Below, piece after piece: positions 14,203-39,353 of a stretch of DNA of 40,132 nucleotides. The number at the start of each line of letters is the position of its first letter. Positions within the stretch are counted from its first letter, which is position 1. The notes beneath the pieces were generated by a model. It was not told the DNA's origin, searched no databases, and saw only the letters and a program-made list of their open reading frames with translations. A program made the translations under genes and the position numbers. Source of the stretch: Candidatus Phascolarctobacterium caballi (GTDB lineage Bacteria > Bacillota > Negativicutes > Acidaminococcales > Acidaminococcaceae). The stretch covers positions 1-40,132 of the forward strand of contig JAGHTS010000059.1 of NCBI GenBank assembly GCA_018065225.1, read 5' to 3'.

Positions 14203-14629
14203 CGACCTGATAGGTATTCCATTTGTGGGCGGTGGCCGTGACCCCAATAAAGGGTTAGATTGCTACGGATTAGTGATGGAAGTATTCCGCAGATATGGTT
14301 ACGAACTGCCGGAATACACGGACGCAGTCAGGGAATGGAATAACGAGAAAAGGTGTCATGAATTTTATACCGAACAAAAATCACGGTACTGGAAGGAAAT
14401 TAAGAACCCTACAGTACCGTGTTTAATTGCTTTTTCGTTTAATGTTCCACGTGGAACGGTCAACCATAGCGGTGTCTATATCGGCGATGGCAAATTTATT
14501 CACACAAGGGAACGGGTGGGGGCTTGCATAGAGTCAATTAACAACCCTGCGTGGAGAAGATTGATAGAGGGATATTATGAGTGCACGATTAACGGTAGTA
14601 AGGAATCCAATAATACCGGAAAAGAATAG
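14183..14629 (+). CDS. NlpC/P60 tail-tip peptidase (lambda gpK-like)
   Basis: GRDPNKGLDCYGLVMEVFRRYG (catalytic Cys), NHSGVYIGDGKFIH (catalytic His); ATG at 14183 inside ORF 14063-14629. Confidence 0.85.
   Translation: MYLKKIDDLIGIPFVGGGRDPNKGLDCYGLVMEVFRRYGYELPEYTDAVREWNNEKRCHEFYTEQKSRYWKEIKNPTVPCLIAFSFNVPRGTVNHSGVYIGDGKFIHTRERVGACIESINNPAWRRLIEGYYECTINGSKESNNTGKE
14443..14458. promoter_or_regulatory. parS-like palindrome TGTTCCACGTGGAACG
   Basis: Perfect 14-bp palindrome GTTCCACGTGGAAC resembling bacterial parS; inside coding sequence. Confidence 0.35.
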
Positions 14630-17600
14630 ATATGTTGGAGAGTTCCCGTTCAAGACCATAGGCGAGGCAAGAGCATGGCTGGACGGACAGGAAGTTAATA
14701 TCACCGTTGATAACTGGCTTGTTACAGATGATTATGAACCAAAAACAGGGGAAATGGTCTTGATAATGCCTGTCATTGGTAAGGGCGGTGGAAAATCCGT
14801 CTTTGGTGTTGTGGCAATGGTGGCATTGGCGGTAGTTTCTCATGGTATTGCAACAGGCGGATGGTTGGCTGGTGCCGGTATTGCTGCAGGCACTACGGCG
14901 GCTTATGGAATTGCGGCAGCCACATTGTTCATTGGCGGTACCTTGATAAGCAGGTCGATGACCAGTGGTGCCAAAGCGGATGTCGGTAGGCACGATTACG
15001 AGAATAACGCAACCTATTCTTGGGGCGACCCACAGACAATGGAAGGTCAGAATAATGCCATAGCCGAAACCTATGGTAAGGTTCAAAGTGCAGGTCAAAC
15101 ACTGGGAAAATTCGTTTCTTTAAGTGGTAATGACGAAGTATTGAATTGGCTGGTGGGATGCGGTAAGGGCGAGTTGGATATTACCGATATCAAACTGAAC
15201 GACAACCCCATTGAGTATTACAAAAATATTTCCTGCGAAATTCGTAGGGGAACAAATGACCAAGAAATAATTAGTAATTTCAACGATACCTATTTTACCG
15301 AAAATGTGTCCGCATTAATGAGCGGTAGTACACCAGTTGTAAGACAGGCACAAGGAACTGCAACAGAGGGATTGATATATAAGATTTCCTGTGATCAAGG
15401 CCTGTATTATGCCAATGATGACGGGGGATTAAGTACAGCGTGGGTAAGAATTCAAATGGATTACCGGTTGCACGCTGCACCCGGCGAAGAAGAGAATCCG
15501 TGGACAGTTTGGCAAACGGTTCAGATATCAGGAGCACAGAATAACGCTCTGCGTAGAGAATACAGATTGGACAATCTCCCTGCAGGTCAATACGATATCC
15601 GGACAACCTGCGTGGGGCGTTCCCATAGTGAATCAAGCTCACGTGCAGGGGTTAAGGTATGGCTTAATTCCATAACCAGTATTGTTTATGATGATTTTGT
15701 GTATCCGGGCATTGCCCTAATAGGAATTAAGGGATTAGCCACAGACCAGCTGAATGGTTCCCCGACAATTAAATTCATTAAAGAGCGAAAATTCATTTGG
15801 GCGTACAATCCTAACACAGGCATGTACGAAGAGCAACCTGCCAATAATCCGGCATGGGCGGCTTATGACATGTTGCATCAAGCCCAAAAGGTAATGAATA
15901 TTAACACCGGGAAATATGAATTTGTTTTTCGGGGTGTTGACAAAAACCATATTCTATACGACCAGTTCAAGGAATGGGGTGACTGGTGTGAAGATATGGA
16001 TTTGCACATCAATCTTGAGATTTGCGAAACAGGGGAAATGCTTGACCTGATTAACAGCAAGATTGCTTGTATTGGTCGTGGGTTGGTTATTAGATTTGGC
16101 ACCCGTTATGGGGCTAAATGGTCACACGCTCAAAACCCGGTTCAGATGTTCGGCATGGGCAATATAGTCAAAGATACCTTTGAGGAAAGTTTCCTGAGTA
16201 TTGATGACCGGGCGAATGCGGTGGAGATAACATTCACGGATGCCGAAAGGGATTACCAACGCCGGACAATCACCGTATTTGGGGAAAATTACAATACGGA
16301 TGCCACAGAAAAGGTTGCACAGGCAACATACGATGGGATTACCAGTTATGAGCAGGCCTTCCGTGAGGGTATGTATCAGCTGGCATGCAACAAATATTTA
16401 TTGCGGACGGTGTCTTTTGACGCTGACGTGGACAGTATTGCTTGTACGGTTGGTGACGTTATTGTAGTTTCCCATGACATTGTACAGGCGGCTTATTCAG
16501 GAAGAATAAGTAAGGTGGTAGGACGTGTGGTTACGTTACCAACCGTTGACCCGGTGGACACAACCCAAAGCTATAAACTCATGTACAGGTCGAGCGAACA
16601 CGACACATTGGAAGAATATGACGTGTCCGTGGCATATAACGAGAATAACGAATTAGAGGCAACCATATTAGGCGAGATTGACCCCGACCCTGCACCTGCA
16701 GTCAATGATATATATGATTTGGCACTGGTGACAATGGGGCGGAGAATGTTTACAATTCAAAGCATTACAAGGTCAAGCGAGTTTCGGCGTCACATTGAGG
16801 CGTTGGAATATAACGCTCAGGTCTATTCCGAAGATTACGATATTCCTGAAATAGAATACAGCAGAGGCGGTGACGTGGCACAGAATGTTACAGGTCTTTC
16901 TTGTGCTCAAGTTGCCTATGTCCGCAAGGACGGAACGCGGGCAAGCCAACTCAATGTGTCGTGGGTAGAGGCGGTGGGCGGTGGTCACTACAACGTCTAT
17001 ATCAGTACCAACGGTAAGGATTGGACACCAATAGCAACTAACACCAGTAAGGTTCAGGTCAAAGCTGACGTTCAACCGTGGACAACCTATTATGTTAAGG
17101 TTGTAACTATATTGGGCGTTAGTCAAAGTAGTGGGGTTGTTGAATATCCTGTTCCGCCGGGAGATGATGTCTTACCGCCGAATGTTCTACAGCTTGATTG
17201 TGAGGTACTGAAGGACGGGACAAGGAGATACCATTGGGATTTCAATTATCCTGAACCAAATGATATTGCCGGGTTCAAAATGAAATATTGTCATGGTACG
17301 GGAGGTAACTGGAACATTGCGGACGATGTTCAAGACGGGTTGATAACAGCCCAACCATACGAGGCAAAGACAATCCGACAGGGTACACATACCATATTCA
17401 TTAAAGCGGTAGATAACGCAGGGCAGGAATCACCATTGCCGGCAACCTGCATAATCAATTTCGGAAAACCTTTGGAAGAGAATGTTTTGGAAACCAAAGA
17501 TTTCAGCGAAAACGGTTGGGGAGAACTGAATTTTGGCGAATTTTGGGATGAAGATGAAAATAAAGAGTTTTGGAACCCCAACGAAGAAACAGATTTTTGG

Positions 17601-18236
17601 GTAAATCATTCACACAACGGAACAGCAAGAGGTTGTTATGTTGGAGCAGACAACAAGATTTATACAGATACTACCGATAGTTATTGGGCTAACCCCGGCG
17701 ACAATAAATGGACGGGCGAAGACGACTACGAATGGACAGCACAATATTGTGACTTCTATGTAGATTTCACGCACGTAGCACAGGCAAGCGGTTATTGGTG
17801 GTTGGATTATGAGATTTCCGGGACTTTCAATATTTATTATTGGATTAACAACGATGGCATTAAGAAACAGTACAACACAAGAATTAAAGTTAATGCCGGG
17901 GATGTTATCCACATAAGTGTTGAGGGAACCGCAAATATGATTATTGTCAGTTCGCTGGTGTCGATTATTGATGTTCCCGACCGGGTAGAACACTTTGAAA
18001 GCATCGATATCAGCAGTGAGGGGACAGAACTGCCGATAAAGACACCAAACTACAAGACAATTACAGTTCATTTGGACAGCTTACCGCTGGAGAACAACGA
18101 AGAGGTCTATTTGGAAGAAATCAGTAAGGAACCATCAATAATCAGATTACGCAAAAAAGATGGAACACCGATAACTGCAACAGCCAAGAGAATCACTTGG
18201 CAGGGATACGAAAGAGAGGTTATTAGCAATGGCTGA
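14577..18236 (+). CDS. tail tip attachment protein (lambda gpJ-like)
   Basis: 1219 aa; gpJ-like core, fibronectin-III-like segments (SCAQVAYVRKDGTRASQLNVSWVEAVGGGHYNVYISTNGKDW); N-terminus with Gly/Ala hydrophobic stretch suggests gpI-like fusion. Confidence 0.88.
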   Translation: MSARLTVVRNPIIPEKNRYVGEFPFKTIGEARAWLDGQEVNITVDNWLVTDDYEPKTGEMVLIMPVIGKGGGKSVFGVVAMVALAVVSHGIATGGWLAGAGIAAGTTAAYGIAAATLFIGGTLISRSMTSGAKADVGRHDYENNATYSWGDPQTMEGQNNAIAETYGKVQSAGQTLGKFVSLSGNDEVLNWLVGCGKGELDITDIKLNDNPIEYYKNISCEIRRGTNDQEIISNFNDTYFTENVSALMSGSTPVVRQAQGTATEGLIYKISCDQGLYYANDDGGLSTAWVRIQMDYRLHAAPGEEENPWTVWQTVQISGAQNNALRREYRLDNLPAGQYDIRTTCVGRSHSESSSRAGVKVWLNSITSIVYDDFVYPGIALIGIKGLATDQLNGSPTIKFIKERKFIWAYNPNTGMYEEQPANNPAWAAYDMLHQAQKVMNINTGKYEFVFRGVDKNHILYDQFKEWGDWCEDMDLHINLEICETGEMLDLINSKIACIGRGLVIRFGTRYGAKWSHAQNPVQMFGMGNIVKDTFEESFLSIDDRANAVEITFTDAERDYQRRTITVFGENYNTDATEKVAQATYDGITSYEQAFREGMYQLACNKYLLRTVSFDADVDSIACTVGDVIVVSHDIVQAAYSGRISKVVGRVVTLPTVDPVDTTQSYKLMYRSSEHDTLEEYDVSVAYNENNELEATILGEIDPDPAPAVNDIYDLALVTMGRRMFTIQSITRSSEFRRHIEALEYNAQVYSEDYDIPEIEYSRGGDVAQNVTGLSCAQVAYVRKDGTRASQLNVSWVEAVGGGHYNVYISTNGKDWTPIATNTSKVQVKADVQPWTTYYVKVVTILGVSQSSGVVEYPVPPGDDVLPPNVLQLDCEVLKDGTRRYHWDFNYPEPNDIAGFKMKYCHGTGGNWNIADDVQDGLITAQPYEAKTIRQGTHTIFIKAVDNAGQESPLPATCIINFGKPLEENVLETKDFSENGWGELNFGEFWDEDENKEFWNPNEETDFWVNHSHNGTARGCYVGADNKIYTDTTDSYWANPGDNKWTGEDDYEWTAQYCDFYVDFTHVAQASGYWWLDYEISGTFNIYYWINNDGIKKQYNTRIKVNAGDVIHISVEGTANMIIVSSLVSIIDVPDRVEHFESIDISSEGTELPIKTPNYKTITVHLDSLPLENNEEVYLEEISKEPSIIRLRKKDGTPITATAKRITWQGYEREVISNG

Positions 18237-19056
18237 AAGGTCGCTTAAATTTAGTAATTACAATAAGTACAACGATACTACCCAAGGCCAGTACCAAGAG
18301 TATAGCCGGAATCAGAATAGTATTGTGACCGAAATGGCAGAGGCACTATTGTGGCAACCTTCCACAATGTACTCTGCCGGGCAGGTATGTATGTCCACCA
18401 AAATACCAAAAGGGAAATGGGCGGTATGTTCAGTTGCGGGCACCAGCGGGCAGGAAGAACCTGATAACTGGGATTCTACCACCCAAGACGGAACTGTAAC
18501 GTGGGTAATAAGGCCAATATCCGTGGTGGTGGACGGTTCAATTATTCAGGGCGGAACAAACCCTGTAACCGCGGCAGCCATTTATTTGGCTTTGTCGGGG
18601 AAACAGAATATAGCTGACCCTGCGGCACTGGCCATAGCGGACAGGAACGGTAATGAGATTAACTTTACAGGGGCAGGCATTAAATTAGTTTTGGGAAATA
18701 CTGCTGTTGCTCGTGCAATAGCAGATAAAGACGGTAATCCTATTGACGGTATTGTGGATGAAGAGCTGGACGGAGAAAGTACCCACGCAATACAAAATAA
18801 GGCGGTCTATGAGGCGATTGGTGCAGATGGGTTTCAGTTTACTGCCAGTCAACAAGCGGCTTTGACATATCAAGCGGCTTATGGTGGCGGAATCAACTAT
18901 TTATATACTCAAACAGGGTTGCCGGAACAGAAGGCGACCCTAAAAACCATAGTCCAAAAGCTGATTAACTTGAGCCATAGTCACACATTGGGGTCTTGGA
19001 ACTGCAACTGTAATTGTGACTGTGACTGCACATGTGACTGTTCAGGGGGGGAATAA
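18229..19056 (+). CDS. tail fibre-like protein with C-terminal alternating-Cys tail
   Basis: Carbohydrate-binding-like repeat LLWQPSTMYSAGQVCMSTKIPKGKWAVCSVAGTSGQEEP...DGTVTW; C-terminus SHSHTLGSWNCNCNCDCDCTCDCSGGE. Confidence 0.8.
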   Translation: MAERSLKFSNYNKYNDTTQGQYQEYSRNQNSIVTEMAEALLWQPSTMYSAGQVCMSTKIPKGKWAVCSVAGTSGQEEPDNWDSTTQDGTVTWVIRPISVVVDGSIIQGGTNPVTAAAIYLALSGKQNIADPAALAIADRNGNEINFTGAGIKLVLGNTAVARAIADKDGNPIDGIVDEELDGESTHAIQNKAVYEAIGADGFQFTASQQAALTYQAAYGGGINYLYTQTGLPEQKATLKTIVQKLINLSHSHTLGSWNCNCNCDCDCTCDCSGGE

Positions 19057-19821
19057 ATGAAGGTTTTTTATAAAAATGACAAAACGCAAAGACAATTAGG
19101 TTTTGAAAACAGTGGTGGCAAACTGACAGCCACTATGTATGTTCAGGAAGAAATCAAACAGGATGACAAAACCAAGATTGTTGAAAAGGTTGCTTTTTCA
19201 AAAACGTGGGAAATTGCAGAGTTATACAAGTTACGAACCAATTCCAATAATTTTACGGTAAAGGTATATTTTAATGATACCGCATTTACAAAAGTTATTC
19301 ACATTATGCCATCACGGGACAACATGAAGGAATATTGCAAGAATATGATTGTATCGGAGAATGGTGGACAGTCCAAAGGTATTGCGTTCTCGGTGTTCTT
19401 CAATGGCCCGGTTGATTGTTGCGTAGTAGTCAACAATTTCACTGTTAAACAATCAGCAGGAATTGAACTTGTAAAGAGTGATAACCCTGACAGGTCAGCA
19501 TTCCAATATTACCCTAATTTTTTGAATAACATGAAAAGGTTCAAAGCGAAACAAGAATTGCTGGCAAAGCTGGATTGCAACGATTCACTTTGTGGCAACG
19601 AGGCACAGGTCGATATCTTAACCAAGATTGTTAAGGCATTGGTGGAGCTGAACCCGGACAGGACAATTAGGGAAAAGGTGCCTGAACTGGATGCCTTCTT
19701 TGAGGCGGTGGACAGCACCAGTGTGCTGACCTTAAAAACCACCACTAAAGCCATTCAGGACATGAAAAAGCAAAAGGAGAATATAAGATATGCCCAACAG
19801 GAATATTTCCAAAACAAATAA
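19057..19821 (+). CDS. unknown protein between Cys-tailed fibre and radical SAM gene
   Basis: Intact 254-aa ORF; no recognisable family. Confidence 0.8.
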   Translation: MKVFYKNDKTQRQLGFENSGGKLTATMYVQEEIKQDDKTKIVEKVAFSKTWEIAELYKLRTNSNNFTVKVYFNDTAFTKVIHIMPSRDNMKEYCKNMIVSENGGQSKGIAFSVFFNGPVDCCVVVNNFTVKQSAGIELVKSDNPDRSAFQYYPNFLNNMKRFKAKQELLAKLDCNDSLCGNEAQVDILTKIVKALVELNPDRTIREKVPELDAFFEAVDSTSVLTLKTTTKAIQDMKKQKENIRYAQQEYFQNK

Positions 19822-20899
19822 AGTTATTAAGATTTTTTTGGGTTCTGCCTGCAACTTCCAGTGTAAATATTGTGTGCAAACCAAAATAGCACAGGAAGTC
19901 CACACACAGCAGGATTTCTCGAAAATAAAAAAGTTTCTTATTGACGAACAGCCGGACAGAGTGTTGTTGTGGGGTGGGGAGCCCCTTTTGTTTTGGGAAA
20001 CATTTAAGGCCATAGCAGAATTTGTGGCTGAAAATTGCCCCAAAGCCGATATTATCACCATAACCAACGGTTCGTTGCTGACTATGGATAAAGTAGAATT
20101 TATCAATAAGTACAATATCGGCATAGGCCTGAGCAATGACGGAAGGCACACTATCAAGACCCGGAACAAGAATGTATTAGAAGATATGCATATTCTTGAT
20201 TGTTTTTTGGGAATAAAGCACAAAGGCATTTGCACGGTACTGACCCCCCTAAACTTTGACATTTACAAAGATATTTGGGGTTATTTTGACGAAGTGCTTA
20301 TGGGCGAAAGGGTCAATGTCAATATAGACCCGGTTAAGAATTGCACAGGGTTGGATATGTTTATTCCCTCTGATTCAGATATGGAAGTGCTGAAAAAGTC
20401 CGTCCATATTATGGGGGATAAATTTGTGGAGTCCATTCAAAAAGGCGACTACAACAGCAGGGAATATATCTTTTTTGAACGGATTATTAGCCACATTAAA
20501 CGAGGTATTTTTGACAGGGAAGATTTAAGCCCTCGTCTTTTGTGCGGTCACGGTCACAATATTATGACCATTGATTTACAGGGAAATATTTTTACCTGCA
20601 ACAATTCCGGCATAATCGTTGGAACCGTGGCAGACAAAGACAAAGCCAATGCCGAAATCAACAAAAGGGTTATCCCAGATAAAAAGTGTATGGAATGTCC
20701 ATACCTTAACATCTGCATACCCGGAACCTGCACCCTGATAACCAAAGATGAAAGGGAGCAGGAATGCCGGATAAGGAAGGTGTTTTACAAGGAATTGATT
20801 TCCCGATTATTCCAATTGGGTGCAAATGGTATTTTGGACGCAACCGCACCCAAACAGGCAAATCTTGACAGGGAAATGTGCCTGTATTCTATGACATAG
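19790..20899 (+). CDS. radical SAM / SPASM-domain protein, putative peptide maturase
   Basis: CNFQCKYC (CxxxCxxC); SPASM-like LLCGHGHNIMTIDLQGNIFTC...KCMECPYLNICIPGTC...QEC; RBS aaaggag upstream. Confidence 0.9.
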   Translation: MPNRNISKTNKVIKIFLGSACNFQCKYCVQTKIAQEVHTQQDFSKIKKFLIDEQPDRVLLWGGEPLLFWETFKAIAEFVAENCPKADIITITNGSLLTMDKVEFINKYNIGIGLSNDGRHTIKTRNKNVLEDMHILDCFLGIKHKGICTVLTPLNFDIYKDIWGYFDEVLMGERVNVNIDPVKNCTGLDMFIPSDSDMEVLKKSVHIMGDKFVESIQKGDYNSREYIFFERIISHIKRGIFDREDLSPRLLCGHGHNIMTIDLQGNIFTCNNSGIIVGTVADKDKANAEINKRVIPDKKCMECPYLNICIPGTCTLITKDEREQECRIRKVFYKELISRLFQLGANGILDATAPKQANLDREMCLYSMT

Positions 20900-20909
20900 G
20901 AGATATAAA

Positions 20910-21902
20910 ATGGCAACACAATTACTTAATTACGATAATTTTACAAGGTTACAACATCCAAAAGAAAAAGAATTATCTGATTATTTTAAAAATCAAAATA
21001 TTGTGCTGGGTGAAGTTCAAAACGATGTTGAGAGTATGAAAACAGGCAAAGCGGACGCAACTAACCTAACCGACCACATCGAAGACGAAGGTAACCCCCA
21101 TAACGTTACCGCTCACCAAGTGGGAACTTTGACCGCCAGCGAAATCATAGAGGCAACGGGAATGCTTATGCGTTCTACCACATATATGGTAGGCGATATT
21201 TGTAAGGTTTCTTTATTGCCTAACAATTTCTATGTGGAATGTACCCAAGCAGGCACAACCAGTTCCACAGAGCCAACCTACACCCCTGTGCTTAATTCAG
21301 AGGTACTGGACGGAACAGCAAAATTTAAGGTGTACCGTTACGCGAACACCACAGAATTAGGTTTTATTCTGCGGAATACAGCGTATGTTGTTGGTGATGC
21401 CTGTTTTTCGGTTCAACTGCAACACAATATGACTTTGGTCTGCACCCAAGCAGGGACAACAGCAGGAACTGAACCGACAATAACCAACCCCGTAATGGGT
21501 ATGGTAATTTCGGACGGCACAGCCAAATTCACGATTAAGCCAACGGTGGCTGAATATTGCAACACCCAACCCACAACAACCAGTACCGCTTCCCCGTATA
21601 AACCAGTGGTCTGTATAGAGAATTATTACGATGAAGAAACGGGCGACTGGTATAGAAAGTACAGCGACGGTTTTATAGAACAGGGTGGGAGAATTGCTGC
21701 CGGTAGTGACAAACAATACACCGGAACATTCCTTATTCCTTTTTCTAATATTAATTACCAAATTTGTTATAGGGGCGTAGCAAGGAATAGTAATACAACT
21801 GCCACCCAATGGCAATGGATTGAAATTAACGCTATCTCTACTACCAGTTTTTGGGCAAAACAAATAAATTTCTACCGTGATTGGTATGCGTGTGGTTATT
21901 AG
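20910..21902 (+). CDS. phase-variable tail fibre, expressed form, gp53-like C-terminal tip
   Basis: HIEDEGNPHNVTAHQVG fibre motif; two carbohydrate-binding-like repeats; tip after DGFIE-QGG lies in invertible segment 1 and ends DWYACGY. Confidence 0.88.
   Translation: MATQLLNYDNFTRLQHPKEKELSDYFKNQNIVLGEVQNDVESMKTGKADATNLTDHIEDEGNPHNVTAHQVGTLTASEIIEATGMLMRSTTYMVGDICKVSLLPNNFYVECTQAGTTSSTEPTYTPVLNSEVLDGTAKFKVYRYANTTELGFILRNTAYVVGDACFSVQLQHNMTLVCTQAGTTAGTEPTITNPVMGMVISDGTAKFTIKPTVAEYCNTQPTTTSTASPYKPVVCIENYYDEETGDWYRKYSDGFIEQGGRIAAGSDKQYTGTFLIPFSNINYQICYRGVARNSNTTATQWQWIEINAISTTSFWAKQINFYRDWYACGY
21681..21689 (+). repeat. shufflon left terminal half-site CAGGGTGGG
   Basis: Matches right arm of the internal sites; left arm absent (...ttttatagaa). 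Confidence 0.75.
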
Positions 21903-22135
21903 TAACCATAAGCTATCCAATAACCAAAGACATTACGAGCGTCAGCCCCTCTTACTATACCTATATGCATAAACCCAGTGGTTGTTACAGACCCATTTTC
22001 CAATCCGGGTTCATAACTATCTGACGAAGTACCGCCACAATCTCCGAGCATGACAACTGGAGTTTTTTGAAACGGCAATATAAAACTAACTTGATGCCGA
22101 GTGTCACTTGCTTGTGTTCCAATTTTACCACCCTG
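21899..22135 (-). CDS. silent fibre tip 1' (QGGKIGTQASDTRHQVSFILPF...FGYWIAYGY)
   Basis: Open from CAGGGTGG to TAA; stop overlaps the stop of tip 1. Confidence 0.85.
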   Translation of the reverse strand, partial: QGGKIGTQASDTRHQVSFILPFQKTPVVMLGDCGGTSSDSYEPGLENGSVTTTGFMHIGIVRGADARNVFGYWIAYGY

Positions 22136-22147
22136 CTATCAGGGTGG
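22128..22147. repeat. shufflon site 1 CCACCCTG-CTAT-CAGGGTGG
   Basis: Palindromic arms, asymmetric 4-nt centre. Confidence 0.88.
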
Positions 22148-22388
22148 TATTTTAACCCCAAGCACTTGGGTAAGAATAGGAATTGGCAATTACAAAATAA
22201 CATTTCTTGTTCCTATGAACAACGTTGTTTTAGCACAAGGAACAGTTAAACAAACCGTAGCAGTTCCTTTTGGTTGGGCTGCTTTCGGTACAGTTACAAA
22301 TGTTAGTATTATTTTTACGCTTATGACAGTTGCAAATAGTTCAAGCGACCAATCAAATAATCTTTGGTGGCGAGTTTGTGGTTATTAG
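22140..22388 (+). CDS. silent fibre tip 2 (QGGILTPSTWVRIGIGNYKITFLVPM...WWRVCGY)
   Basis: Open from CAGGGTGG to TAG. Confidence 0.85.
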   Translation, partial: QGGILTPSTWVRIGIGNYKITFLVPMNNVVLAQGTVKQTVAVPFGWAAFGTVTNVSIIFTLMTVANSSSDQSNNLWWRVCGY

Positions 22389-22609
22389 TAACCACAAGCG
22401 TAGTACCCCCTGCTGACCGCAGAAACAGGTACTGCCCTAAAAGAGGACGCAGATACTGCATAGATTTGGAGTTGCCACCATCCGGGGTTTGTTGTATATG
22501 AAGTTACATCTTGACCCAAATATCCTATTTTATATTTTGCGTTTTTGAACGGAACAAGCAATGTTCCGTCATAATATTGACTGGCGATGCCCGGTATCTT
22601 ACCACCCTG
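22385..22609 (-). CDS. silent fibre tip 2' (QGGKIPGIASQYYDGTLLVPF...GYYACGY)
   Basis: Open from CAGGGTGG to TAA. Confidence 0.85.
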   Translation of the reverse strand, partial: QGGKIPGIASQYYDGTLLVPFKNAKYKIGYLGQDVTSYTTNPGWWQLQIYAVSASSFRAVPVSAVSRGYYACGY

Positions 22610-22621
22610 ATAGCAGGGTGG
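22602..22621. repeat. shufflon site 2 CCACCCTG-ATAG-CAGGGTGG
   Basis: Same arms, reverse-complement centre. Confidence 0.88.
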
Positions 22622-22823
22622 GTACTCAATAGGTGAAGGCAGTAAAAACTTGATTGTCCCATTCCAAAAAAGTTATGTTGCTGTAATTAGTGCTGTTGCA
22701 AGCGGTGATGTAAGATACGAAATCAAATTAGGAACAATAACATTGACTACTTTTAATGTTGTATATCATAGGTCTTCAACATCAGTAACTTGTAATTTTA
22801 ATTGGGTTGCTTATGGGTACTAA
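22614..22823 (+). CDS. silent fibre tip 3 (QGGYSIGEGSKNLIVPF...NWVAYGY)
   Basis: Open from CAGGGTGG to TAA. Confidence 0.85.
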   Translation, partial: QGGYSIGEGSKNLIVPFQKSYVAVISAVASGDVRYEIKLGTITLTTFNVVYHRSSTSVTCNFNWVAYGY

Positions 22824-23041
22824 TAACCGCAGCATCCCCATGTAACTAACTTATTGCTAACAGTAGTTCCCAAAGTAGCTACATATGAGCTTCCCTTAAA
22901 ATTTGTAAATGTTTTACTGTTTAAGGTTATTGAAAAAGGGCATGCCCCTTCAACAGCACCATACACCAAATATTTGGTAGCGGTAAAAGGTATAATAAGG
23001 GTAATTAAAGTACCTTCCTTAATATTGCTAATACCACCCTG
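22820..23041 (-). CDS. silent fibre tip 3' (QGGISNIKEGTLITLIIPF...TWGCCGY)
   Basis: Open from CAGGGTGG to TAG. Confidence 0.85.
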   Translation of the reverse strand, partial: QGGISNIKEGTLITLIIPFTATKYLVYGAVEGACPFSITLNSKTFTNFKGSSYVATLGTTVSNKLVTWGCCGY

Positions 23042-23053
23042 ATAGCAGGGTGG
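23034..23053. repeat. shufflon site 3 CCACCCTG-ATAG-CAGGGTGG
   Basis: Same arms. Confidence 0.88.
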
Positions 23054-23267
23054 TAAATTTAACAAGGCAGGTTTAGTTACAATTGTCTTGATTGTTAGCT
23101 TTTCTAACGTCAACTATTTTTTAAGTTGCGTACCAAGATATAGCGACCATTCAATATCCGCCCCGTTTGGAAGATTAGGTTTTAATAAAACGACAACAAC
23201 TTTCCAAAACGGAGCATCAACAACAAGTGGCGGTGTTCCCACAGATTGGTATGCTTGTGGTTTTTAA
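23046..23267 (+). CDS. silent fibre tip 4 (QGGKFNKAGLVTIVLIVSF...DWYACGF)
   Basis: Open from CAGGGTGG to TAA. Confidence 0.85.
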   Translation, partial: QGGKFNKAGLVTIVLIVSFSNVNYFLSCVPRYSDHSISAPFGRLGFNKTTTTFQNGASTTSGGVPTDWYACGF

Positions 23268-23476
23268 TAACCGCAACAGCACCACCAATTTTGTGAAGCA
23301 AGATCAGATACACCAGCAATGCTAATTGCGGTATTCGTTTTCGCCAAACCGCCAATATTGCAATTGTGGGCTCCCAACGCAGTCCCTGATAACGCAGAAT
23401 AATTGTTGTGCAAGAATGGCATTAAAAAAGTTATGGTCTTAACTTGACCAGCATTTAGATATACACTACCACCCTG
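23264..23476 (-). CDS. silent fibre tip 4' (QGGSVYLNAGQVKTITFLMPF...NWWCCCGY)
   Basis: Open from CAGGGTGG to TAA. Confidence 0.85.
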   Translation of the reverse strand, partial: QGGSVYLNAGQVKTITFLMPFLHNNYSALSGTALGAHNCNIGGLAKTNTAISIAGVSDLASQNWWCCCGY

Positions 23477-23488
23477 CTATCAGGGTGG
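23469..23488. repeat. shufflon site 4 CCACCCTG-CTAT-CAGGGTGG
   Basis: Same arms. Confidence 0.88.
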
Positions 23489-23702
23489 GGTCATTTCGTA
23501 CAATGGTAGTAGTTCGGGAAATACATATCAATTTTTAACACCATTTTCAACAACCCATTTATATGTTGGTTGCACCTGCATAACAACTATGGATGCTTAT
23601 ATTGTTAGAAACATAACTCAAACTTCATTTATTGTCTCAGCAGGTACAAGAAATATTGGGTGGTTTGCCAACAATTTTATATGGTATGCGTCCGGTTATT
23701 GA
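23481..23702 (+). CDS. silent fibre tip 5 (QGGVISYNGSSSGNTYQFLTPF...IWYASGY)
   Basis: Open from CAGGGTGG to TGA. Confidence 0.85.
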   Translation, partial: QGGVISYNGSSSGNTYQFLTPFSTTHLYVGCTCITTMDAYIVRNITQTSFIVSAGTRNIGWFANNFIWYASGY

Positions 23703-23926
23703 TATCCACAAGCATAATACGAAACTATTCCTGTATTCTCGTCTTGATAATAAGTAAAACCGGTTCCGGTTCGTTTTTGCGGCACCCAATTAACAGAAGT
23801 CATACTTCCGCTCCAACCGTTTTCTATAGAGTAACAAAACAGCAAAGAATAATTATTATTGGAGAACGGGACAAGAAAAGTCAACGTGTAATATGTACGT
23901 CCAATGACAGGTCTGTACCCACCCTG
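23696..23926 (-). CDS. silent fibre tip 5' (QGGYRPVIGRTYYTLTFLVPF...SYYACGYQ)
   Basis: Open from CAGGGTGG to TAA. Confidence 0.85.
   Translation of the reverse strand, partial: QGGYRPVIGRTYYTLTFLVPFSNNNYSLLFCYSIENGWSGSMTSVNWVPQKRTGTGFTYYQDENTGIVSYYACGYQ
23919..23926 (-). repeat. shufflon right terminal half-site CCACCCTG
   Basis: Half-site followed by ctcttaatc, no right arm. Confidence 0.75.
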
Positions 23927-23997
23927 CTCTTAATCAAATTTCAGTCGATTTAGAAAGTCGCTTGAAATTTGGCTAAAAGCCGAAAGGAGAATAAAAA

Positions 23998-24378
23998 ATG
24001 AGTATTGGAACAAAATTGCCTAAACCCTGTCCACAAAATCAGTGGTTAGAGGCGAGAAAGTGGGCGATGGGGCATAATGCCACCATTGAAGACAAAGGGA
24101 ATTATTATGAGATTGTAGCCATTCCTGCACCGAGTGTTGAAGAACTGCAAAGTCAAAGACGGGGGGTCAGAGATAACTACCTGAATGGTATTGAATGGCG
24201 GGTTGACAGGTACAAAGACCAGTTGGCTTTGGGCATTCCCACAAATGACACAGAAACCACATACAGAGCGGTTTTGCAGTATATGCAGTACCTGAGGGAT
24301 TATCCAAACAATTTGGGCGGTAACTGGTGGGAAGAAGACCCTTTAACTTTCGAAAAATGGCTTGAAATCAATGGTTAA
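23998..24378 (+). CDS. tail fibre assembly protein
   Basis: QSQRRGVRDNYLNGIEWRVDRYKDQLALG...YRAVLQYMQYLRDYPN resembles phage fibre-assembly chaperone C-termini; immediately downstream of the fibre locus. Confidence 0.7.
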   Translation: MSIGTKLPKPCPQNQWLEARKWAMGHNATIEDKGNYYEIVAIPAPSVEELQSQRRGVRDNYLNGIEWRVDRYKDQLALGIPTNDTETTYRAVLQYMQYLRDYPNNLGGNWWEEDPLTFEKWLEING

Positions 24379-24403
24379 AGGGATTTTTAATGCGTTAATT
24401 TAA

Positions 24404-24491
24404 TTAGTAACAAATTAGTAACACGTTAAAAAGTGATAAATGCGTGGGTTAAAAGGAAAACAATTCTTGAATTAGTAACAGGTTAGTAACA
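24404..24491 (+). repeat. four direct copies of TTAGTAACA in two pairs upstream of the recombinase
   Basis: TTAGTAACA at 24404, 24415, 24472 and 24483; 11-bp spacing within each pair. Confidence 0.8.
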
Positions 24492-24505
24492 CAATATTAC
24501 CGGAG

Positions 24506-25540
24506 GTGGTAAAAATGAAGTTACCGAACGGCTTTGGAAGTGTTACTAAATTAAGCGGAAACCGGAGAAAACCTTTTGCGGTTAGAAAGTGGATGTCGGG
24601 CAAACAGATTTATGCCGGAAGTTTCGAAACTTACGAACTTGCCATTGCGTACCTTATCAATTCCCAAAAGAGCCATAGTGCCATTGGCATTAAGAGAATG
24701 ACCTTTATTGAGGTGTACCGGCAAATGGCGGCAGAAAAATATGGCGACCTTGCGGAAAACAGTGTCAAGAATTATGAGGCGGCACTAAGGCATTGCGAAT
24801 TACTTTTTAATAAGCCCTTATGTGAAATTAAATTATCAGACCTGCAAAAGGTAATTTCCCAAATGGATGCCCAAAAGATAGGGTACGCAAGCCAAAGGAA
24901 ATGCCGGTCTTTATTCCACAATGTCTATGGCTACGCAATTAAGTATGAGATTGTGGACGTGGACTATTCCCAGTGGGTGGAGATTTGCAAAAGGGTGGTA
25001 TTGCACCCCAAGAAACCTTTTAACCGGCGGCAGCTCAACAGGGTTATTGCATTAGCTGAAGGGGATGGAGCGTTGGCACGGTGGGCAAAGTGTGTTGTTA
25101 TGCTTTGCTACAATGGATGCAGGGCAGGGGAATTTTTGAGCATAAAGAAAACAGACGTAAAATTGGGGCAAAAATTCTTTATTGTCCGGGAAAGCAAAAC
25201 TGAATCAGGGCGAAACAGGATTGTTCCCATTCATAAAAAATTATTACCTTATTATCAATGGTGGTATGAACAAGAGGGCTCAACCCTGATAAGCGAGAAC
25301 GGGGAACCGGTAACATATCAGCGGTTCAAAGCTCTTTTTGACAGGGTAATGAAAATAAGCCATTGCCACCACAGCCCCCATGAATGCCGCCATACTTTGG
25401 CAACATGGCTGGACGATGCCGGAGCAAATGAAGTTGCTACCAAAAAGATACTTGGCCACAGCGTGAAGGGAATAACCAAAGGTGTTTATACCCACAAGAA
25501 CCTGCACGAACTGAGAAAGGCAATAAACAAGGTAAAATAG
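24506..25540 (+). CDS. tyrosine recombinase, probable shufflon (Rci-like) recombinase
   Basis: R-H-x-x-R-Y signature (NGCRAGEFLSIKK; HECRHTLATWLDD; ILGHSVKGITKGVYTH); adjacent to shufflon, separate from the attP-linked integrase. Confidence 0.85.
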   Translation: MVKMKLPNGFGSVTKLSGNRRKPFAVRKWMSGKQIYAGSFETYELAIAYLINSQKSHSAIGIKRMTFIEVYRQMAAEKYGDLAENSVKNYEAALRHCELLFNKPLCEIKLSDLQKVISQMDAQKIGYASQRKCRSLFHNVYGYAIKYEIVDVDYSQWVEICKRVVLHPKKPFNRRQLNRVIALAEGDGALARWAKCVVMLCYNGCRAGEFLSIKKTDVKLGQKFFIVRESKTESGRNRIVPIHKKLLPYYQWWYEQEGSTLISENGEPVTYQRFKALFDRVMKISHCHHSPHECRHTLATWLDDAGANEVATKKILGHSVKGITKGVYTHKNLHELRKAINKVK

Positions 25541-38084: not shown

Positions 38085-39353
38085 ATGAAAATTGAAAAAG
38101 TGAAATTGTGTGACCTCGTCCCGGACAATCGGAACGCCCGGTCGCACAGCGAGCGAAACATTATCGAGATAATGAAATCGCTTGAAGAACATGGCCAGTA
38201 CAGACCCTTTGTTGTCCAAAAAGGAACAAACAGGGTTTGTGTCGGGAATGGAATGTTGGCGGCTATGCTGCGGTTAGGTATGACTGAAGGCGATGCGGTC
38301 ATTAAAGAACTGACGGACGAACAATTCACCCGTTTGGCTTTGGCTGATAACCGAACAGCCGAACTTGCAGAATGGAATGACGACATTCTCAAAGATTTGC
38401 TTAAAGAACTGGACAACCCAATAGGGTGGACACAAGAAGAGGTGGCCATGATATTGGATGCTGGAAAAAAGGAAATCGTACAGGATATTCCTCCGGCTGT
38501 TCAGGCAAAGACAAAATCCAAAACAGGGGAACTGTGGCGGATGGGTGAGCATATTCTTATGGTGGGAGATGCCACCAACAAAAAAGACGTAGAGACATTG
38601 TGCAAGGGTAAGACGGTGGACTTGTTCCTGACCGACCCACCCTACAATGTGAATTACACCAAAGGAACAGCCGGAACCATAGAAAATGACAATATGGAAT
38701 CGGCAGCGTTTTTGGCATTTTTGGTTGATTCATTCAAGGCGGCGGATGCGGTGCTGAAGTCGGGCGGTGCATTTTATATTTGGCACGCAGACCTAAACGG
38801 CAACCCGTTCCGTGCGGCGGTGGCCACAGTGGGGTGGGAACTAAAACAAATACTGATTTGGAAGAAAAATCACTTCACTCTTGGGCGACAAGATTATCAA
38901 TGGCAACATGAACCCTGCTTGTATGGGTGGAAATCTGGAGCGGGGCATTACTTTATAAACGAACGTATAAATGCGACAATATTGGAGAAAACAAATGAAA
39001 AAGAGCTAAAAGATTATACCAAAGCGGAATTAATTGACTTGCTTAATACTATAAAGGCATTAGACAGTACGGTGTTAAGTTATGATAAACCAGTCCGCAG
39101 TGCAGAACACCCGACAATGAAGCCGGTGGAACTCATTGCCCGGGAAATCAAAAACAGCACCAAACCAAAACAGACCATACTGGACACCTTCGGTGGAAGT
39201 GGAACAACAATGATTGCGGCAGAGCAATTGGGGAGAAATTGCCTTATGATGGAGATTGACCCCCATTATGCTGACGTGATTATCAGAAGGTGGCAGAACT
39301 TCACTGGCAAGCAAGCCGTGAATATGGCCACTGGGAAAAAGTTTGGAAAGTGA
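38085..39353 (+). CDS. ParB-N domain fused to N4/N6 DNA methyltransferase
   Basis: VPDNRNARSHSERNIIEIMKSLEEHGQYRPFVVQ; LTDPPYNVNY; ILDTFGGSGTTMIAAEQLGR. Confidence 0.93.
   Translation: MKIEKVKLCDLVPDNRNARSHSERNIIEIMKSLEEHGQYRPFVVQKGTNRVCVGNGMLAAMLRLGMTEGDAVIKELTDEQFTRLALADNRTAELAEWNDDILKDLLKELDNPIGWTQEEVAMILDAGKKEIVQDIPPAVQAKTKSKTGELWRMGEHILMVGDATNKKDVETLCKGKTVDLFLTDPPYNVNYTKGTAGTIENDNMESAAFLAFLVDSFKAADAVLKSGGAFYIWHADLNGNPFRAAVATVGWELKQILIWKKNHFTLGRQDYQWQHEPCLYGWKSGAGHYFINERINATILEKTNEKELKDYTKAELIDLLNTIKALDSTVLSYDKPVRSAEHPTMKPVELIAREIKNSTKPKQTILDTFGGSGTTMIAAEQLGRNCLMMEIDPHYADVIIRRWQNFTGKQAVNMATGKKFGK

Follow-up and report, generated by a model that had tools for sequence, protein, structure and literature searches.

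Architecture of the locus

The window analysed here is the whole 40,132-nucleotide stretch of contig JAGHTS010000059.1 from Candidatus Phascolarctobacterium caballi, which profile matches to terminase, portal, major head, tape measure and J-type tip genes identify as a lambda-like siphovirus contig. Directly downstream of its J-like tail-tip gene (14577-18236) lie three closely packed plus-strand genes, encoding in order a 275-aa tail-fibre protein with an alternating-Cys, or (CX)n, C-terminus (18229..19056; open reading frame (ORF) call and profile matches), a 254-aa protein that we call partner B (19057..19821), and a 369-aa radical S-adenosylmethionine (rSAM) enzyme of the SPASM type (19790..20899). 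Because the partner B ORF begins 1 base past the fibre stop, and the rSAM ORF overlaps that of partner B by 32 nt, we read fibre, partner B and rSAM as a single operon. A DNA search found no match to this module in plasmids.

The fibre C-terminus reads WNCNCNCDCDCTCDCSGGE / SHSHTLGSWNCNCNCDCDCTCDCSGGE / NCNCNCDCDCTCDCSGGE, with seven Cys residues alternating with N, N, D, D, T and D. The tail itself, NCNCNCDCDCTCDC (19000..19041, plus strand), is the presumed modification site, and the conserved segment that precedes it, GLPEQKATLKTIVQKLINLSHSHTLGSW (18928..18996, plus strand, boundaries approximate), is a candidate leader or recognition element. Seven Cys strictly alternating with N, D or T had been reported at the tail position in an earlier sequence-only reading of this DNA, and translation of the ORF confirms them. 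Neither chance nor a microsatellite origin can account for this tail, as the chance expectation of seven alternating Cys is about 1e-8 per window (Cys makes up 1.9% of residues in the window genes) and the tail codons are mixed (TGC/TGT, AAC/AAT, GAC and ACA), which excludes a DNA microsatellite. The tail is, in fact, the sole CXCXC run among the called genes of the window. The fibre-like body that carries it repeats a domain of the next fibre ORF (phrog_20658, a weak match), has homologues only in loci L236 and L238 among the fibres compared, and has no Hint or S74 domain of its own.

Linkage of Cys tails and rSAM enzymes across phages

A tail-first scan of IMG/VR, which used only the DNA pattern (RAYTGY)x5, equivalent to (N/D-C)x5, returned at least 120 stretches. 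Among the matches listed, the run was located within 15 aa of an ORF end in 86 of 120 stretches, and a homologous rSAM accompanied 70 of these 86 terminal runs compared to 6 of the 34 others (Fisher 1e-10). Five of those six were tails placed before an S74 chaperone (L028, L050, L065, L117) or a Hint domain (L103), and the sixth (L017) was cut by the contig end; several of the 16 listed terminal tails with no rSAM were in short or edge-cut stretches. From the other direction, we fetched 80 viral loci using an rSAM profile while ignoring cysteines, and found CXCXC within the last 30 aa of an ORF in 56 of them, compared to 3 of 80 reversed sequences (p 8e-20). By a similar criterion, a tail was near 6 of 53 weak, other-family rSAM matches in genomes, at least one of which, from Ewingella (L193), is a true member. 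In all of the 141 loci with both a tail and an rSAM the two genes are on the same strand, with the tail gene upstream in 121 and a median gap of 903 nt. Clustering the rSAMs that have an associated tail gives approximately 17 lineages with a 40% identity threshold and 30 with one of 50%, and lineages are a better count than loci because related sequences are not independent. The pairing of tail and enzyme noted in the sequence-only reading was therefore found from both directions and in many unrelated phages, without being universal: that reading, which had named homologous enzymes with no Cys-repeat protein as evidence against itself, withstands this check only in part, as 24 of the 80 loci have no CXCXC terminus, although several of these have looser Cys-dense ends.

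Protein-first scans of IMG/VR with the window rSAM and fibre yielded no confirmed relatives, so that patterns and profiles were needed. Two groups of matches were set aside, namely the gut-phage rSAMs of MT836452, MT838578 and MT836984, which are in bacterial-type gene contexts with no tail genes and look like host maturases of ribosomally synthesised and post-translationally modified peptides (RiPPs), and the rSAMs of Campylobacter phages, a different enzyme group whose surroundings are T4-like replication and virion genes and include no protein with alternating Cys.

Among cultured phages, Achromobacter phage JWF carries, after J, the fibre gp028, the 240-aa gp029 and the rSAM gp030, in the same fibre, partner and enzyme order as the window. 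Its gp028 contains PRQNCNCDCNCNCSCFPAGTMV, where an alternating-Cys run is directly followed by a Hint domain (Pfam Hom_end_hint, 3e-12), and Achromobacter phage 2-1 has the same arrangement. These two isolates (three records) were the only close full-length matches to five rSAM queries in approximately 50,700 phage records, the rest being weak or partial, and such rarity may be one cause of the module having been overlooked so far. Based on Hint/intein chemistry, cleavage by a Hint domain of the JWF type should fall ahead of its first Cys, which would leave the Cys run at the mature C-terminus. Three arrangements are thus predicted to place the tail at a mature C-terminus: it ends the protein directly, precedes a self-cleaving Hint domain (JWF, 2-1, Halomonas L181, L281, L103, L165 and L025), or precedes a self-cleaving S74 chaperone (L028 and L117, with S74 confirmed by Pfam in both).

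Some loci are more elaborate. Acidaminococcus and Phascolarctobacterium prophages have two rSAMs. Three Acidaminococcaceae prophages (L144, L150 and L153) encode a stand-alone Hint-like protein without the catalytic first Cys, and the first two also encode small CQxCQ-rich proteins (GNCCQxNCCQTCQ...) that end in NCNCxC like the tails. Runs of the (CK)n type, with about 20 or more alternating Cys, are present in L289 and L294, the former just before an S74-like SDGRLKEN motif. A Trp halogenase gene lies within a (CX)n/radical SAM locus (L050:11790-12944; Pfam 3.4e-92 in such viral loci), and 2-oxoglutarate (2OG)-Fe(II) oxygenase-like genes are found at other viral loci, as weak matches under the Pfam cut-off.

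Enzyme, partner and modular tag

The window enzyme matches Pfam Radical_SAM (PF04055, 1.4e-8, above the gathering score) and phrog_1802 (3.6e-36 over residues 4-352, a significant full-length match), to which JWF gp030 also belongs by score (2.1e-74). In an alignment of 59 members, C21, C25 and C28 of the radical SAM core CNFQCKYC (CxxxCxxC) are invariant, as are the auxiliary C270, C300, C303, C309, C314 and C326, with C252 kept in at least 90%. The AlphaFold model of the enzyme (mean predicted local distance difference test score, pLDDT, 87.3) has CteB, ChlB, the anaerobic sulfatase-maturating enzyme (anSME), TigE and SuiB as its nearest solved structures, with CteB, a thioether maturase, on top (Z 24.1, 318 residues, root mean square deviation 4.0); by sequence profile, the nearest are TigE, CteB and anSME. 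Both the CxxxCxxC enzyme with a full SPASM Cys set that the sequence-only reading had seen two genes downstream of the fibre, and its assignment to the SPASM maturases, are borne out by this conservation and by the peptide- or protein-modifying nature of the nearest solved relatives. Because the alignment begins at residue 88 of CteB, the window enzyme appears to lack the N-terminal recognition domain (RRE type) of that protein.

The best NCBIfam models are all peptide maturases, PapB first (NF047865, 80.9 bits, E 1e-22, against a cut-off of 340), and every one of them scores far under its cut-off, including the SCIFF maturase (TIGR03974, 49.6 bits against 425). The anaerobic sulfatase maturase model is likewise below its cut-off (TIGR03942, 40.2 bits against 349), and HxsB and HxsC models match weakly, far below both cut-offs. 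The window enzyme therefore falls outside all of these named families. An antiviral viperin (pVip) identity was rejected, as NF038283 gives 50.9 bits against a cut-off of 180 and the PADLOC pVip match spans only residues 12-120.

Pairwise comparison within the window's group of fibres found similarity over the last 62 aa in 80 of 91 pairs, but over the bodies in 18 of 91, the shared piece being AGTYTLxxLLQxLVNxSHxH followed by the Cys run. Two fibres of a single Phascolarctobacterium prophage (L153) are alike at this end only, and Ewingella carries an echo of the conserved segment (LLDSLLNHTHVYLDDYGTACNCNC). In 61 distinct cores, the X residues between Cys are N (53%), D (21%) and A (15%), so that N or D amounts to 74%. 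Judging by these alignments, segment and Cys run together are arranged like a putative leader and core with which a structural protein terminates. A leader fused to a virion protein had in fact been proposed for the window, and the finding of a conserved segment and a variable Cys core on unrelated fibre bodies agrees with it.

Partner B, whose helical C-terminal half carries an EAQVDxLT motif, is conserved beside the rSAM, and a profile built without the window protein retrieves it at E 5.9e-20. In the AlphaFold2 model the C-terminal helices are confident and the N-terminal half has no confident fold; a structure search gave coiled-coil matches only (Z <=5.5) and no meaningful fold match. In locus L165, from a Duodenibacillus metagenome-assembled genome, an rSAM carries the partner B domain as a C-terminal fusion, and other lineages carry a different partner family of approximately 280 aa (clusters 1 and 12). 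Two roles had been suggested for the 254-aa protein, recognition partner or acceptor; its conservation beside the enzyme and its lack of a Cys-repeat favor the former over the latter. Partner B could serve as a separate recognition protein in place of an RRE. The same Duodenibacillus locus (L165:5111-11758) has about five consecutive radical SAM genes, one being that with the fused partner B, as well as a fibre whose Cys tail precedes a Hint-like domain.

Elsewhere in the window, positions 21891-23716 and 24506-25540 contain four copies, of approximately 22-31 nt, of CCACCCTG(C/A)TA(T/G)CAGGGTGG in alternating orientation with spacing of about 435-475 nt, together with alternative fibre ends on both strands (..YACGY, ..WWRVCGY, ..TWGCCGY, ..YYACGYQ) and then a tyrosine recombinase. 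The region 21891-25540 looks like a shufflon of tail-fibre tips. A DNA methyltransferase fused to a ParB-like domain is encoded at 38085-39350 (phrog_498, 1.6e-134).

A putative fibre-tip maturation module and its alternatives

We regard as the probable explanation for these findings that the operon is a phage-encoded, RiPP-like module for maturation of the fibre tip, in which the rSAM and its partner modify the Cys tail, most likely by forming thioethers. The fibre would be made with its C-terminal tag, and partner B and the rSAM would bind the segment TLxxLLQxLxNxSHxH just upstream of the tail. The enzyme would then generate radicals in the core and couple Cys sulfur to a carbon of the neighbouring Asn or Asp (a thioether, -2 Da each), or modify Cys otherwise; cross-links could be confined to one chain or could join the three chains that make up the fibre. 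In some phages, Hint or S74 cleavage would expose the finished end. With the tail presumed to form the distal end of the fibre, the modification, if carried in virions, may harden the tip chemically or make it adhesive where it meets the host surface.

Known systems offer partial parallels. The ranthipeptide/SCIFF maturases (CteB; PapB-PapA, freyrasin) share with the phage module a SPASM radical SAM fold, two auxiliary cluster sites and a Cys-rich substrate. PapB makes Cys-to-Asp/Glu thioethers and can link a Cys and an Asp that have 0 to 6 residues between them (CX0-6D; PMC9413430), so that thioethers at (C-N/D)n spacing would be chemically possible. Unlike in those systems, however, the proposed phage substrate is a fibre C-terminus rather than a small peptide, and the enzyme has a 254-aa partner and no N-terminal RRE. 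A short-period repeat protein served by radical SAM enzymes, sometimes two, is also found in the His-Xaa-Ser system (HxsA/HxsB/HxsC), although the phage repeat is Cys-Xaa and is sited in tail modules. Phage tail proteins that process themselves through Hint or Peptidase_S74 domains are known as well, and both domain types, matched by Pfam, follow the Cys tail in some relatives; what differs here is that the domain boundary coincides with a Cys tail and a linked rSAM.

Several observations weigh against the thioether module. The loci of both collections are partly redundant and related, so that the p-values overstate independence. Homologous rSAMs with no alternating-Cys ORF nearby are found in Variovorax/Ramlibacter (L171, L174, L175, L177, L178) and in viral locus L249, and rSAM loci without a Cys tail would reflect either loss of the tail or other substrates. 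In some tails the X position is taken by Ala or Lys (CACACAC, (CK)n), at odds with Cys-Asn/Asp linkage as the only chemistry, and the many tail-bearing proteins of only 60-130 aa are not necessarily fibres. Furthermore, anSME, whose product from Cys is formylglycine, is only slightly less similar in structure than CteB (Z 22.5).

One alternative is that the rSAM acts on the tail by a different chemistry. It could oxidise Cys to formylglycine or thioaldehyde in the manner of anSME, yielding a series of aldehydes able to attach covalently to the host surface, or it could epimerise every second residue, so that the tip would become a helix of alternating L and D residues. No Asn/Asp partner is needed where X is Ala or Lys, anSME is among the closest structures (Z 22.3-22.5) and is a SPASM enzyme that acts on Cys of a full-size protein, the JWF enzyme is labelled 'anaerobic sulfatase-maturating enzyme' in one record, and modification of every second residue is typical of known peptide epimerases. 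We nevertheless consider such chemistry rather unlikely, because the module has no sulfatase and no C-x-P-x-R motif, the tails have no C/S-x-P-x-R sulfatase motif, Asn and Asp make up most of X, and CteB gives both the longest alignment and the highest Z.

Alternatively, the (CX)n tail could keep the fibre trimer together as a knot that binds metal or Fe-S or is made of disulfides, with the rSAM serving cluster delivery or another step and no cross-links being made. The tail would sit at the distal end of the presumed trimer, metallothioneins use CXC motifs for metal binding, and metal ions occur in phage spike tips. A simple knot, however, would not need an enzyme of the SPASM class, to which the tail is linked in 17 lineages, and SPASM-type radical enzymes are not known to load metals into an already folded protein, which makes this explanation improbable. 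More doubtful still is the idea that the rSAM has a different target, for example a component of the host surface or some other phage protein, and that its adjacency to the tail follows from the clustering of host-interaction genes; even though about 30% of homologous viral rSAM loci have no Cys tail, and tail-fibre modules gather many morons, halogenase and oxygenase genes included, the link was seen from both directions, always on one strand and usually between adjacent genes in unrelated phages, and the tail cassette recurs on unrelated fibres in enzyme-bearing phages. It is scarcely plausible that the small Cys-tailed proteins, and by analogy the tail of the fibre, give rise to a RiPP-like peptide that is released (a bacteriocin or exclusion factor) and do not belong to the virion: tails do occur on 60-130 aa proteins, sometimes three per locus, and RiPP tailoring genes (Trp halogenase, weak 2OG oxygenases) are near some loci, but both the window and JWF have the tail on a long fibre-like protein beside J, no exporter or protease is among the gene families recurring in these loci, and Hint and S74 cleavage leaves the tail on the large N-terminal part.

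We found no description of radical SAM modification of phages or virions in the literature, although subscription journals and preprints were thinly covered, so that this absence is not proof. Radical SAM genes have been mentioned, without a Cys tail, in Campylobacter phages (PMC3322345) and in host-recognition islands of pelagimyophages (PMC7029224). Our comparisons point to radical SAM peptide maturation in which the proposed substrate is a virion protein, and which has a much wider range than the sequence-only reading implied. That reading was right in what it observed, while its interpretation appears largely right in direction and is supported in part, by the linkage and the architecture.

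The fibre-tip maturation module, as we interpret it, suggests that a virus may alter the tip of its own particle ahead of host contact. More tentatively, it is possible that a virion maturation strategy is widespread among phages that infect many bacterial groups, in which an rSAM, sometimes with halogenases and oxygenases, converts a C-terminal (Cys-X)n fibre tag to a cross-linked cap, and Hint or S74 cleavage is timed to expose it; if so, receptor-contacting tips would present post-translationally synthesised chemistry and not just protein. Because two cultured Achromobacter phages carry the module, these ideas are directly testable. The module would also offer a role for the unassigned phrog_1802 family of phage enzymes, and for peptide cross-linking it supplies ready pairs of enzyme and substrate in which the tag is modular. 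The choice of the cell to infect lies with the fibre tips, yet both host-range prediction and engineering treat them as plain protein. If tips are enzymatically modified, fibres expressed alone would not have an active tip, which could explain failed recombinant binding assays.

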